In this document: positions 10,742 through 34,839 of the stretch, piece after piece
Layout: every line of letters begins with the position of its first letter
How positions within the stretch are numbered: position 1 is the stretch's first letter
Assembly (NCBI GenBank): GCA_012270875.1
Contig: JAAXHI010000367.1
Coordinates: forward strand, 1 to 37,797
Direction of reading: 5' to 3'
DNA length: 37,797 nucleotides
Source of the DNA: Candidatus Poribacteria bacterium
Lineage (GTDB): Bacteria; Poribacteria; WGA-4E; WGA-3G
Notes under the pieces: model-generated
The model's input: the letters and a program-made list of their open reading frames with translations, nothing else
What the model was told of the DNA's origin: nothing
Database searches by the model: none
Program-made: the position numbers and the translations under genes

Positions 10742-11398
10742 ATGATGATAAGCATACAAAGATTTTTCTTATTGATTATTGGATTACTATTTTGTGTACT
10801 GGGTTGCGCTCGCGAGCATGTTGATATGCCTATGCTTGATGATCATGCAGCACCTATGGAAACACATGAACCTGTTGACATTGAGGCTGCTTTTGCGCAA
10901 AACCTTTTGCCGATCCTTACGGCGAGATGTGCGCTCTCTGGATGTCATGTCGCTGACGGTCCTCACGGTTTGGATTTCAGGACGTACGCATCTTTTGTCG
11001 CCGGAGGCGAGCACGGTCCGGCGTTCATTCCAGGGAATGCTGAAGCAAGTGAGGTTATCGAACAAATCGTTGAAGGCAAAATGCCGCCGCCGCCGCGTGA
11101 TCCGCTAACCGATGCCGAGATTCAACTTTTTAGAGATTGGATTAATCAGCAGGAAGCTCAGGATCATGTTGTCCAACACGAGCATGGCGATGAAGAGGAC
11201 ACAGACGACGAGCATGACGAGCATAGCGATGAAGAAGATGCTGACGGAGATCATGATGCTGATGATGACGACGAGCATGACGAGCATGATGACGTGGATG
11301 ACGATGATGGGCATGCCGGTGATGACGACGAGCATGATGACGACGATGACAACGGTCATGACGACGATGACGACGAGCATGACGATGATAACAACTAA
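10742..11398 (+). CDS. Lipoprotein c-type cytochrome (PSCyt1-like, CX4CH) with Asp/Glu/His-rich tail
   Basis: MMISIQRFFLLIIGLLFCVLGCAREH lipobox; ILTARCALSGCHVADGPHGLDFRTY...EGKMPPPPRDPLTDAEIQLFRDWINQ; tail HEHGDEEDTDDEHDEHSDEED...GHDDDDDEHDDDNN. Confidence 0.85.
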   Translation: MMISIQRFFLLIIGLLFCVLGCAREHVDMPMLDDHAAPMETHEPVDIEAAFAQNLLPILTARCALSGCHVADGPHGLDFRTYASFVAGGEHGPAFIPGNAEASEVIEQIVEGKMPPPPRDPLTDAEIQLFRDWINQQEAQDHVVQHEHGDEEDTDDEHDEHSDEEDADGDHDADDDDEHDEHDDVDDDDGHAGDDDEHDDDDDNGHDDDDDEHDDDNN

Positions 11399-11983: not shown

Positions 11984-12964
11984 ATGTTTACAAATACACG
12001 AAGGTCTTTCCTACTTATCATAGGATTGTTATTTTACTTAGTTGGGTGTGATTCCGAGCGAGGCGGTCTCTTATTGCTCGATAATATTTTATCTGAAAAC
12101 GAGCAGGTTCCGGCTATGGAAAGTGTTGAGACCGCTAACGCTGAAATTACTTTTGAACAGAACCTTTTGCCTCTTCTCACGCAAAGATGCGCGTACGCTG
12201 GTTGCCATGTTGCTGGCGGACCCAAAAACCTTGACTTCAGCACATATCAAGCTTTTATAAAGGGCGGAGATGAAGGTCCCGTATTTATTCCAGGCAATGC
12301 GCAAGGCAGTGCTATTATTGACGAAATCGTCTCCGGTAGAATGCCCATCGGTGGTCCGCAGCTGACCAATGCGGAAATCCAACGCTTTACTGATTGGATT
12401 AACAATCAAGAAGCAATCCCGGATAGATCCTTTGATGAACCACCTGAGACACAAACTCCAGAATCTACTGACGGTACAGTTTCTTTTCAGCAGGACCTTC
12501 TGCCTATTCTCACGGCGCGGTGTGCCTATAGTGGTTGTCATGATGCTAACGGTCCCGACGACCTTGATTTCAGGACATACCAAACTTTCATACGAAGCGC
12601 AGAGGACGAGGATGTATTTGTCCCAGGTAATGCCCGAAGCAGCGATATTATTGAAGAAATTGTCTCTGGCAGAATGCCCCCTGACGGTCCTCCATTGACT
12701 GCTGCGCAAATTCAACTCTTCAGAGATTGGATTAATCAGCAAGACCCTGCCGATTTTCCTAATCTCCGTTATGATGATGACGACTACGACGATGATGACT
12801 ACGACGATGACGACTATGACGATGACGACTATGACGATGACGACTACGACGATGATGACGATGACGACTACGACGATGATGATGACGATGACGACGATGA
12901 TGATGACGACGATGATGATGACGACGATGATGATGACGACGATGATGACGACGATGATGACTAA
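11984..12964 (+). CDS. Lipoprotein with two PSCyt1-like c-type cytochrome domains (CX4CH) and a poly-Asp/Tyr tail
   Basis: MFTNTRRSFLLIIGLLFYLVGCDSERGG lipobox; RCAYAGCHVAGG (12188-12208) and RCAYSGCHDANG (12521-12541); GRMP motifs; tail (YDDDD)x5-YD7-YD30. Confidence 0.88.
   Translation: MFTNTRRSFLLIIGLLFYLVGCDSERGGLLLLDNILSENEQVPAMESVETANAEITFEQNLLPLLTQRCAYAGCHVAGGPKNLDFSTYQAFIKGGDEGPVFIPGNAQGSAIIDEIVSGRMPIGGPQLTNAEIQRFTDWINNQEAIPDRSFDEPPETQTPESTDGTVSFQQDLLPILTARCAYSGCHDANGPDDLDFRTYQTFIRSAEDEDVFVPGNARSSDIIEEIVSGRMPPDGPPLTAAQIQLFRDWINQQDPADFPNLRYDDDDYDDDDYDDDDYDDDDYDDDDYDDDDDDDYDDDDDDDDDDDDDDDDDDDDDDDDDDDDDD
12770..12961 (+). repeat. GAT/GAC codon repeat tract encoding YDDDD repeats and 30 consecutive Asp
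   Basis: 64 codons: 57 Asp and 7 Tyr, mixed GAT and GAC. Confidence 0.95.
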
Positions 12965-24856: not shown

Positions 24857-25654
24857 TTATGGTGTCTTATCTACATGAAAACCGTGTTCTGTGAGCGTAG
24901 TAGATACAGATGTCCAAATGGATCGTGTTTGTTCAACAGCCTCGGTAGCCTCTGCTTTAGTGGCTCCTTGCATGTCCTCTGGGTAACGGGCTTCAACTGC
25001 CCATCGGGTCAAATCTGACAGGTCTGGATGCGTGGTTTTGAGTTGCCAACTCTCAGGCAGCAAATCCCGTAAAACATTCAAGTCATGTGTTCTCCGAAAA
25101 TCGATCTGTAAGAAAATTAATGCTGCTTTTAACGCCTTTTCAGCACTTTGTTGGGCAAACCAACAGACTTGGCGAGGCGGAACGTATGGATGCTCTAAGA
25201 AGATTTCAGCGGTTGTTAAGTCTTCCTCCGCATGGCGGAGCCAACGTGCGGTGTCTGCGAGTCTATCGGCTGTTTGCATAGAAGACTTTACCTCCTCGTT
25301 GGGTACGCCGCAGCATTGATCCGATCCGCGTGCGACCGCGTTCAAGTTCTTCCAAAGGATTTTACCTTCTTGTTGGGCATACCGCAGCACTGATCCGATC
25401 CGCGTGCGACCGCGTTCCAACTCTTCCGGTGTGGATACGATGATGTCCTTTGCCACAGGCACATCAGATAGTGCGCGCCTAATATCAATGGCAGTTTTCC
25501 GTTTATCCGCGAGTTCCGAGAAAACGACGATCAGGTCTATATCGCTATTTTGATCTGCATCCCCTCGTGCCTGTGAACCGAAGAGGATAATCTGTAGCGG
25601 GTCAAACTCACGCACAATGCGCTCCGTCATGATTGAGATAAATTCGTTATCCAT
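24857..25654 (-). CDS. Fused MNT nucleotidyltransferase-HEPN protein
   Basis: MNT: DPLQIILFGSQARGDADQNSDIDLIVVFSE; HEPN: ARWLRHAEEDLTTAEIFLEHPYVPPRQVCWFAQQSAEKALKAALIFLQIDFRRTHDLNVL. Confidence 0.87.
   Translation of the reverse strand: MDNEFISIMTERIVREFDPLQIILFGSQARGDADQNSDIDLIVVFSELADKRKTAIDIRRALSDVPVAKDIIVSTPEELERGRTRIGSVLRYAQQEGKILWKNLNAVARGSDQCCGVPNEEVKSSMQTADRLADTARWLRHAEEDLTTAEIFLEHPYVPPRQVCWFAQQSAEKALKAALIFLQIDFRRTHDLNVLRDLLPESWQLKTTHPDLSDLTRWAVEARYPEDMQGATKAEATEAVEQTRSIWTSVSTTLTEHGFHVDKTP
25287..25427 (-). repeat. 67-bp direct duplication (25287-25353 and 25361-25427), 74-bp period
   Basis: TTTACCTCCTCGTTGGGTACGCCGCAGCATTGATCCGATCCGCGTGCGACCGCGTTCAAGTTCTTCC vs TTTACCTTCTTGTTGGGCATACCGCAGCACTGATCCGATCCGCGTGCGACCGCGTTCCAACTCTTCC; about 9 differences by eye. 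Confidence 0.93.
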
Positions 25655-25734: not shown

Positions 25735-25974
25735 TCATGATAGTCCTACCCAGAACCATGTTACCGTATCCTCATTTAAGACACCAACTGCACGATAGCC
25801 ACGAGTGATTCTTACCGACCAAATGCTTTCCTTGCTATTAATACATTTGAAATGCAAAGAATTATGAAACGGGTTGGATATCCATAACCGATAAGCCTTC
25901 TTGGCTTGATTCTTAAGCGTTTCGTCAAGGGTTTGATAAGCTGTCCAAAACGAAGGTAATGTTACAGACTTCAT
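25735..25974 (-). pseudogene. RelE/ParE-like toxin, C-terminus apparently frameshifted
   Basis: MKSVTLPSFWTAYQTLDETLKNQAKKAYRLWISNPFHNSLHFKCINSKESIWSVRITRGYRAVGVLNEDTVTWFWVGLS-stop; the next frame continues HDDYERFFG-stop. Confidence 0.75.
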
Positions 25975-26201
25975 AGCCGATCCAAATCCATCGGTTCTGA
26001 TTTTCCTTCTGCAATTTCCTGTTTGGCACGACGAGCGGCCGCCATAAGTTGTTCTTGCGTTCTGTCAAAGGATGCGTTCCAGCGAAGTTCATCCTCTAAG
26101 TCTGCAATGTACTCACGCAGATGATCTACAATCTGATTCTGCAACGCCTCGGGCAGTGTTTCCATCATTCGGGTCATCGTGGTAATAGCATTAGAAGCCA
26201 T
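25971..26201 (-). CDS. Antitoxin of RelE/ParE-type module
   Basis: MASNAITTMTRMMETLPEALQNQIVDHLREYIADLEDELRWNASFDRTQEQLMAAARRAKQEIAEGKSEPMDLDRL; ATGA overlap with the toxin. Confidence 0.8.
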   Translation of the reverse strand: MASNAITTMTRMMETLPEALQNQIVDHLREYIADLEDELRWNASFDRTQEQLMAAARRAKQEIAEGKSEPMDLDRL

Positions 26202-27079: not shown

Positions 27080-28237
27080 CTAAACGTGATGCTCACCTAA
27101 TAACAGTTTGAAATACATATCTAATCCGGAGACTGCCTGTTGTTTTTCTATCGAATTTATCTGAAAACGCTTTTTCAGGAAAGGGTGATGTCTAACAGCA
27201 TCGCTGACGAAAGCAGGTTTATATTGCCTGAACAAGTTATCATCTATAAGCACATCACAATTCCCAAAATAGAAAGGGAGTCTATGCAGGTTTCTTTTGA
27301 ACACATCTACGTAGGCGTAATAATCCAATTTCTGCTTGTCAATTACAATCGTATTCGCGCTGTAGTTTTCAACAAAAGTGCGATTTCTTTTTAATGCGTT
27401 GATGTCTCGCATCGTCCAAAAAAATAGAGGCGCATCTTTTTCGGAGTGATGGCCATCTCTCTCCACATCTACCGGTCGATTCTTCTTGGGATATTTATCA
27501 ATGTAATTGTTAATATAATCAAAATCACCGAGACAAAAATCGCTTTTACCATCCGGACGAAAACGAAAAGAACGGATAAAGTTGTACGCCATTCCGCGCG
27601 TGTCTTTCTGGTAAAGGGCAAGGACAATTGGGAAAGGCGTGTGTTTCGCGGATTCAGGAAATTCCCCACTGCTGATCAATAGACCGTCTATCAATCTATA
27701 GTTTGTAGTGAACTCTTTTAAAAGTCTAAAATTGGTCGGCTTAATTAAATAGGACAGTGGATGCAACACACAAATAACGGCTGCTTCGAGTTTATTATAA
27801 GAACGGAGAAACGATATGCCTAAATCGCGACACGCTAAATCTTCATCGATGTCAAAATCGACATCTTTGATATTGTGGCGAATAAGGGATGTTTTATCAT
27901 TATAGGGCGGATTTCCAACGACGATCAAATCGGACTGCTGAGAAATACTGAATTTTGCCCTTGATACGTCGCACAAAGCGTTTGTTTGAAAAAAACGGGC
28001 TGCGTCATTGTTCTTTTTAGCGACACTGATTGCTGTTTCGTCTATATCGCACCCAATTGTGATAGCCTGTCCACAATCTTTCAGAAAATCCCCGTATCCA
28101 CACGCGCTATCAATGACAGTAGTCTGTGAATTCACATAAGGTGCAATCATCTCCCACGCTACATCTACAATTTCAGGCGGCGTGTAGTAACTCCCTAAAT
28201 TCACTCTGTTCTCATACGCTAAGTGTGCTTGACTCAT
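27080..28237 (-). CDS. N6-adenine-specific DNA methyltransferase
   Basis: LGSYYTPPEIVDVAWEMIAPYV...VIDSACGYGDFL (SAM motif I)...SDLIVVGNPPYND (catalytic NPPY). Confidence 0.88.
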   Translation of the reverse strand: MSQAHLAYENRVNLGSYYTPPEIVDVAWEMIAPYVNSQTTVIDSACGYGDFLKDCGQAITIGCDIDETAISVAKKNNDAARFFQTNALCDVSRAKFSISQQSDLIVVGNPPYNDKTSLIRHNIKDVDFDIDEDLACRDLGISFLRSYNKLEAAVICVLHPLSYLIKPTNFRLLKEFTTNYRLIDGLLISSGEFPESAKHTPFPIVLALYQKDTRGMAYNFIRSFRFRPDGKSDFCLGDFDYINNYIDKYPKKNRPVDVERDGHHSEKDAPLFFWTMRDINALKRNRTFVENYSANTIVIDKQKLDYYAYVDVFKRNLHRLPFYFGNCDVLIDDNLFRQYKPAFVSDAVRHHPFLKKRFQINSIEKQQAVSGLDMYFKLLLGEHHV

Positions 28238-33961: not shown

Positions 33962-34687
33962 TTAGGTGTCTATCTGTGCGCGTGCAAGTTGTTCTCGGAG
34001 GCGTTTGATTTCTTCTTCGGCTTTCTGACGGGTGATAGCTTCTTGCTCCGCGCGTGCCTCGGCGGCTTCCGCGCGTGCCTCGGCGGCTTCCGCGGGGGGC
34101 TGGAGCCACTTCTCCCCAACAGAGTCGTAAATCCCTAAACGCCGCTCTCGGATATGGAAATCTAAACCGAGAATATCTGAACGGATACCACCATCAACGC
34201 CCGGTGGAATAGGGATATAGACCCCATCTATTAACTGAAAGCCCATCAGCGGAGAAGGCAGATAAAGTGCCTCTGCATCATAGAGAAGGTAGTTCGGGAT
34301 ACCAAGCGTCGCGTAGAGGTCCATCTTATCTGTAAGGTCGTTCTGATAGGTCGTTTTACTTGAAAACTCCATCACAAAATCGGGCACTTTCCCCTCCTCC
34401 CACACTTTGTAGGTGTGGCGCTGCTTTTGCCCGATGCCGAAAGAGACCAGCACATCCGGTGCCACGACCGCACGTGGGTCGCCCTCCGTGTAATACGTCA
34501 GAATATCACCCGAGACATAGACATCCGGTCTCTGCGCGAAATGCGCTTTTAGCGTCTGCAAAAGCCAGATGAGGATTTCAAGGTGGAGGTCACTCGCTGC
34601 CATAGGTTCACCGTCCGTGTCAGGGTAGAGGTCCGCCGTATCTGTCGGAGCATAAGGCACGTTGGGCCAATTTGTGTAGGTATCCAT
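33962..34687 (-). CDS. Uma2-family (DUF820) endonuclease-like protein
   Basis: PRAVVAPDVLVSFGIGQKQRHTYKVWEEGKVPDFVMEFSSKTTYQNDLTDKMDLYATLGIPNYLLYDAE; C-terminal AEAAEARAEAAEARAEQEAITRQKAEEEIKRLREQLA. Confidence 0.9.
   Translation of the reverse strand: MDTYTNWPNVPYAPTDTADLYPDTDGEPMAASDLHLEILIWLLQTLKAHFAQRPDVYVSGDILTYYTEGDPRAVVAPDVLVSFGIGQKQRHTYKVWEEGKVPDFVMEFSSKTTYQNDLTDKMDLYATLGIPNYLLYDAEALYLPSPLMGFQLIDGVYIPIPPGVDGGIRSDILGLDFHIRERRLGIYDSVGEKWLQPPAEAAEARAEAAEARAEQEAITRQKAEEEIKRLREQLARAQIDT
34050..34091 (-). repeat. 21-bp tandem repeat x2 in the Uma2 C-terminal region
   Basis: GCGCGTGCCTCGGCGGCTTCC twice, encoding AEAAEAR heptads. Confidence 0.9.
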
Positions 34688-34839
34688 CGGTATTCTCCTT
34701 GCTGTGGGATACATGATGCATGATTTAGGATCGAATCTGTTAATGCGTCGCGGCGCGACTTGTTATTGGGACAACAGCACCTTGATATACTTCAGTGTAG
34801 CATAAAAAAATGCTGCTGTCAAATGCCTTGAGCGTGCCA

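Follow-up and report, generated by a model that had tools for sequence, protein, structure and literature searches.

Very probable origin of a fused MNT-HEPN gene in Candidatus Poribacteria by out-of-frame tandem duplication across a gene overlap

The fused gene and its internal repeat

The DNA analysed here is a contig of 37,797 nucleotides (the window) from a MAG of Candidatus Poribacteria. On its minus strand, a single open reading frame encodes a protein of 265 amino acids that carries an MNT domain (PF01909) followed by a HEPN domain (PF05168). The features of this gene are as follows.

24857..25654, minus strand: fused MNT-HEPN gene, 265 aa; Pfam matches to NTP_transf_2 (4.4e-11, residues 12-84) and HEPN PF05168 (7.1e-20, residues 137-250)
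25355..25654, minus strand: MNT domain (nucleotidyltransferase, antitoxin-type), residues 1-100; GSX10DXD motif G26-S27...D38-I39-D40, third Asp D70
25354..25427, minus strand: copy 1 of a 74-bp duplication, read in the MNT frame; C-terminal helix and strand of MNT
25353..25354, minus strand: duplication junction ...ATCCTTT/GGAAGA..., within codon W101
25280..25353, minus strand: copy 2 of the duplication, read in the HEPN frame; linker residues ~102-125
25291-25296, minus strand: AGGAGG motif, 11 nt upstream of the M126 ATG
25277..25279, minus strand: probable former HEPN start codon ATG, now internal M126
24860..25279, minus strand: HEPN domain, residues 126-265; H190 of RTHDL, R223-Y224-P of the ARYP motif

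The presence of both Pfam domains on one polypeptide, with PF05168 scoring 71.8 bits against a cut-off of 22, makes the product an MNT-HEPN-T fusion. Its GSX10DXD motif (with ten residues between S27 and D38) and third Asp are intact, and these motif residues are unchanged across 21 fused homologs. The His of RTH and the ARYP motif are likewise retained in nearly all intact fused HEPN domains; H190 is missing in one fused gene (L035), and the Asp that follows it is often Asn. The Rx4-6H RNase motif was not found in the fused HEPN domain, where ARYPEDM has no correctly spaced His and the conserved His lies elsewhere (RTH190DL). Against the NCBIfam MntA_antitoxin equivalog, the fused protein scores 35.9 bits, under the cut-off of 60.

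The two domains are joined across a repeat, which the original prediction had described as two 67-bp copies lying 74 bp apart. The 74-nt spacing is correct, but the copies are not separate 67-bp units with a spacer between them. Rather, exactly 74 bp were duplicated in tandem, head to tail and with nothing in between; copy 1 (25427-25354) and copy 2 (25353-25280, in gene order) are identical at 62 of 74 positions. As a direct repeat, the pair has a spacing of 74 nt with 86% identity over 70 nt, and TRF reports a period of 74 and 1.9 copies at 25287-25427. This similarity far exceeds what composition yields, with a mean of 19 and a maximum of 34 identities out of 74 when copy 2 is shuffled, and at most 30 of 50 in codon-shuffled genes versus 44 of 50 observed. 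The reading frames are those that had been proposed: copy 1 is translated in the MNT frame as ELERGRTRIGSVLRYAQQEGKIL, and the near-identical copy 2 is translated in the HEPN frame as a linker, which begins after the junction codon TGG (W101) as KNLNAVARGSDQCCGVPNEEVKSS and runs into M126 of the HEPN domain.

Low-complexity arrays excepted, this duplication is the strongest short-range repeat of the window. Two such arrays are located on the plus strand at 11178-11395 and 12776-12963, with periods of 9-24 and GAT/GAC-rich units, and lie in open reading frames 10742-11398 and 11984-12964, where they probably encode Asp-rich acidic repeats. A perfect 21-bp tandem repeat of 2.3 copies is also present at 34047-34094, within open reading frame 33962-34714.

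The window belongs to a fragmented MAG of 597 contigs, a circumstance that invites the reading of the repeat as an assembly or sequencing artefact, and an error of this kind at 25287-25427 had been named in advance as something that would overturn the prediction. We regard this reading as virtually impossible because 33 loci from independent assemblies, some of them single-contig genomes of 5-7 Mb, have the same insertion at the same place.

Split relatives and the origin of the fusion

Close homologs with separate MNT and HEPN genes and no duplication, which the original prediction had proposed to seek, do exist. Such two-gene relatives are present in the same genus, in the same family and in other families of the order, as overlapping genes that carry a single copy of the repeat unit, and some occupy the same chromosomal position as the fused gene. 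Of 16 split pairs, all but L024 share one geometry (three of these 15 come from other families): HEPN begins 14 nt before MNT ends, in the +1 frame, and exactly 73 nt lie between the MNT core and the point where HEPN coding begins. Moreover, split pairs of the window's family have no stop in the HEPN frame over the 33-61 codons that precede the HEPN start (2-27 codons in three outgroup loci), and therefore the DNA under the MNT C-terminus was already readable in a second frame.

In the 33 fused relatives, the corresponding distance is 147 nt (73+74), or else 150, 144, 132 or 117 nt, all of them multiples of 3. Every one of the 33 carries an extra 74 nt, or 74 nt plus or minus a multiple of 3, and the same fusion without the duplication, which would have spoken against the proposal, was not encountered among them. 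A fusion that is independent of the repeat was rejected because the difference between fused and split spacing equals the repeat length exactly. Fused and split forms can also reside in one genome at different loci, as in the single-contig genomes G036 and G035 and in G008, each of which has a fused gene together with a split pair or its remnant.

These observations bear out the earlier proposal that a frameshifting tandem duplication joined a two-gene pair, and very probably the MNT/HEPN overlap was fused by one out-of-frame duplication of 74 bp. The ancestor would have been a two-gene pair with the HEPN start 14 nt inside the MNT end in the +1 frame, and in the window's family at least 33 codons ahead of that start would already have been free of stops in the HEPN frame. 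A single head-to-tail duplication over the MNT C-terminus (74 mod 3 = 2) would then remove the MNT stop from the reading path. Copy 1 would keep the entire MNT C-terminus in frame, and in copy 2 the same DNA would be entered in the HEPN frame, yielding a linker of ~25 residues that leads into a complete HEPN domain. Gaining or losing 1 or 2 bases close to the end of MNT could likewise bring the frames together, but at the cost of either having no linker or losing the MNT C-terminus; the duplication would keep both proteins whole while adding ~25 flexible residues in one step.

The number of such events is a separate matter. In 31 fused genes the junction is at the identical position, inside the new Trp codon (TTT/GG, with a few TAT/GG or TGT/GG), and the same 31 share WK codons (WQ in one) and group together as a single clade, with support of 96/90 in the HEPN tree and 87/82 in the concatenated one. 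The fusion is common to at least three genera. The remaining two, L045 and L072, differ in having a 77-bp unit and another junction, and they branch apart from this clade, so that a second, independent duplication is possible for them; the MNT of L045 is frameshifted, and this locus is probably a pseudogene. These two loci, along with the copies of L043, which are identical at 73 of 74 positions despite the age of the clade, could point to recurrent independent duplications of ~74 bp rather than to one ancient event followed by gene conversion. Given the common junction and codons of the 31 genes, and an AU test in which a single origin of all 33 fused genes is not rejected (p=0.21), we consider such recurrence unlikely.

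Divergence of the copies, HEPN retention and the chromosomal site

After the proposed duplication, copy 2 would have drifted under mild constraint, admitting only indels that preserve the frame. Its dN/dS is 0.43 in the fused frame versus 0.81 in the old MNT frame, and that of copy 1 is 0.11 in the MNT frame. Stop codons occur in copy 2 in none of the 33 genes in the fused frame, compared with 26 and 14 of the 33 in the other two frames. Residues 106-127 are predicted with pLDDT below 50, and therefore the linker encoded by copy 2 is likely to be flexible or disordered.

Simple divergence between the copies describes most lineages, but in some, the window included, copy 2 appears to have been partly overwritten by copy 1. 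Variants peculiar to a gene's own copy 1 are shared by its copy 2 in L001 (3 of 3), L006 (3 of 5), L036 (3 of 6) and L043 (5 of 5), where 0.5-0.9 would be expected, and a permutation test of the pairing over 14 genes gives p=0.014, all these figures taking related sequences as independent. We take this pattern of shared variants as evidence of gene conversion, in four lineages including the window, between copies that encode different peptides. Recombination of another kind is suggested by L039/L042 and L040/L041/L044 (genus g4), in which the MNT half groups with the MNTs of some split pairs and the HEPN half falls within the fused clade, as if the exchange had occurred inside the fused gene.

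Fused and split loci differ strongly in how often the HEPN frame is broken: 12 of 23 split loci versus 1 of 33 fused loci (Fisher p=2.4e-5, uncorrected for phylogeny). Within the family, HEPN is broken in 8 of 16 split loci (p=2.1e-4, again uncorrected). Of the 12 split loci with a broken HEPN gene, 11 retain an intact MNT core, and since the truncation points differ among these loci, the losses are mostly separate events. This distribution suggests that fusion stabilised the putative toxin domain. Breakage in split loci fits a HEPN domain that acts as a costly toxin, and retention in fused loci is in keeping with a fusion through which HEPN became harmless or useful.

The window's site, adjoining sugar-isomerase-like and DUF6807 genes, is where the gene sits in 23 fused-form genomes of genera g1 and g4; in a few of them only one flank falls within the stretch analysed. 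The same site holds a split pair in four genomes and HEPN alone in one (L030). Thus, the explanation that fused and split forms are mere paralogs at different loci was rejected as a full account, because both are found here. In the trees of both flanking genes, these five non-fused genomes fall among the fused genomes, yet in the HEPN tree the split pairs lie outside the main fused clade. The split alleles therefore look like allelic replacements rather than ancestors at the site, and the site itself does not show the transition. Read most simply, these trees mean that the site has long held the fused allele and that a split pair replaced it later in some species. The idea that L025-L028 are revertants from the fused form is unsupported by the HEPN tree. 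L024, however, may represent fission of a fused gene via recombination between its copies, to judge from the 5′ part of its unit, which resembles copy 1 (0.88 versus 0.74 for split), and its 3′ part, which is closest to a copy 2; AU tests on L024 as a revertant are not decisive.

Several further observations concern this neighbourhood. The HEPN-only gene of L030 (G025:C113) has GTDDL in place of RTHDL and so has lost the conserved His, and its upstream DNA resembles copy 2 of the fused genes; MNT seems to have been deleted here, with the His lost alongside. At 25735-26201 on the minus strand of the window, immediately upstream of the fused gene, lie a ParE-like toxin gene (PF24732) and, overlapping it by 4 nt, its small partner on the upstream side. 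Some relatives have these genes at the same site and others lack them, so the site collects toxin-antitoxin genes. An RHH/ParE-like pair often stands between the genes that flank the fused gene at the isomerase/DUF6807 site. A type II DNA methyltransferase-like gene (PADLOC MTase_II, E 9e-90) is also found nearby at 27080-28237 on the minus strand.

Possible functions and relation to known systems

The product would be either a toxin-antitoxin in a single chain or an enzyme domesticated from such a protein. We rate the chances of a single-chain toxin-antitoxin function as about even. In such a protein, MNT would be tethered 1:1 to HEPN and would probably AMPylate the conserved C-terminal tyrosine Y224 of ARYP, either in cis or within a homodimer by the MNT of the partner chain. 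Tethering would lift the burden of an unbalanced toxin, which would explain why HEPN is frequently lost from split pairs and almost never from fused genes. Speaking against a toxin role, the canonical Rx4-6H is absent from the fused HEPN domain (ARYPED, with the His elsewhere).

The same protein could instead be a domesticated single-chain nucleotidyltransferase, in which HEPN binds a substrate for MNT and some other molecule is modified, as with kanamycin nucleotidyltransferase. The near absence of HEPN loss after fusion is expected of a useful enzyme rather than of a selfish toxin, the protein model resembles ANT enzymes and HalB in fold along its whole length, though weakly, and domestication of this type has been proposed for MNT-fused HEPNs, most of which have no catalytic residues and serve in binding or regulation (PMC3710099). 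However, the His and ARYP residues persist in nearly all fused HEPNs, and the NCBIfam aminoglycoside nucleotidyltransferase models score 15 bits against cut-offs of 340-350. Relaxed selection on the fused HEPN was not seen either, with dN/dS of 0.24 in the fused and 0.27 in the split set, and thus no change of constraint is visible. We judge domestication to be plausible but somewhat short of an even prospect.

It is also conceivable, although rather improbable, that the gene yields two products, namely the fusion and a free HEPN protein initiated at the old internal ATG (M126) from a Shine-Dalgarno-like motif in copy 2. The ATG is retained in 28 of 33 fused genes (ATA in 4, GTG in 1), and the window has AGGAGG upstream of it. 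This motif is rather far from the ATG, though, and neither copy 1 nor the split pairs match it consistently less well. Furthermore, the ATG has become ATA in at least two lineages (L019; L040/L041/L044), whose fused open reading frames are essentially full-length.

Bacterial gene fusions are common, but the causal mutation is seldom still readable. Here it can be read, and outgroups as well as the same chromosomal site hold the unfused pair. We see from this case how two genes can be joined by tandem duplication across their overlap, with neither truncated and with a linker drawn from an alternative frame. As a tentative generalization, to which we lean less than halfway, overlapping toxin-antitoxin genes might be a substrate for one-step fusion by short out-of-frame duplications that keep both proteins whole and recruit a linker from the second frame. 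This would have happened at least twice in Poribacteria (the 74-bp and 77-bp units), with gene conversion homogenising the copies and recombination between them undoing the fusion (L024), so that the pair would move between fused and split states while fusion protects the toxin domain from loss. The comparability of fused and split relatives (~60-75% HEPN identity) permits a direct test of antitoxin-toxin tethering.

In the limited set of literature searched, we found no precedent for fusion via out-of-frame tandem duplication across a gene overlap. Fusions born of deletion and overprinting in bacteria (PMC12803068) likewise join genes through structural mutation, but the present event involves a small out-of-frame tandem duplication over an overlap, leaves both proteins whole and takes its linker from a second frame. 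MNT-HEPN fusions as such are already known. HEPNs of PF05168 are tabulated both alone and fused to MNT (PMC3710099, Table 1), with the same two domains per chain as here, and some HEPN-T proteins have Asp in place of the Rx4-6H His, with a His elsewhere (PMC3710099). That source records the architecture alone, whereas in the window's family one can see which mutation made the fusion, where its linker came from and what the unfused relatives look like; the conserved His and ARYP residues are also retained. Two distant fusions in the same genome (G000:C215 and C396; ~33% identity) share the domain order and a similar length but have no internal duplication, and represent a fusion separate from that of the window.

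The closest two-gene counterpart is MntA/HepT type VII of Shewanella oneidensis (SO_3165/SO_3166), in which MntA AMPylates a HepT tyrosine and the proteins form a 2:6 complex (PMC7641770). The likeness consists of MNT and HEPN partners and the GSX10DXD motif, and our split relatives are likewise overlapping two-gene pairs with MNT first. The window protein, in contrast, is one chain from one open reading frame, its HEPN belongs to PF05168 (HEPN-T) with no canonical Rx4-6H, and fusion forces a 1:1 ratio where the published complex is a 2:6 octamer. Aminoglycoside nucleotidyltransferases, such as kanamycin nucleotidyltransferase, provide the best whole-length fold matches, with a nucleotidyltransferase domain followed by a HEPN-like helical bundle in one chain. 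This similarity is weak (TM 0.42, 13% identity), the window protein matches none of the family models for these enzymes, and it has a long predicted disordered linker. Nevertheless, the fused gene bears on the proposal that single-chain nucleotidyltransferases arose from MNT/HEPN pairs.
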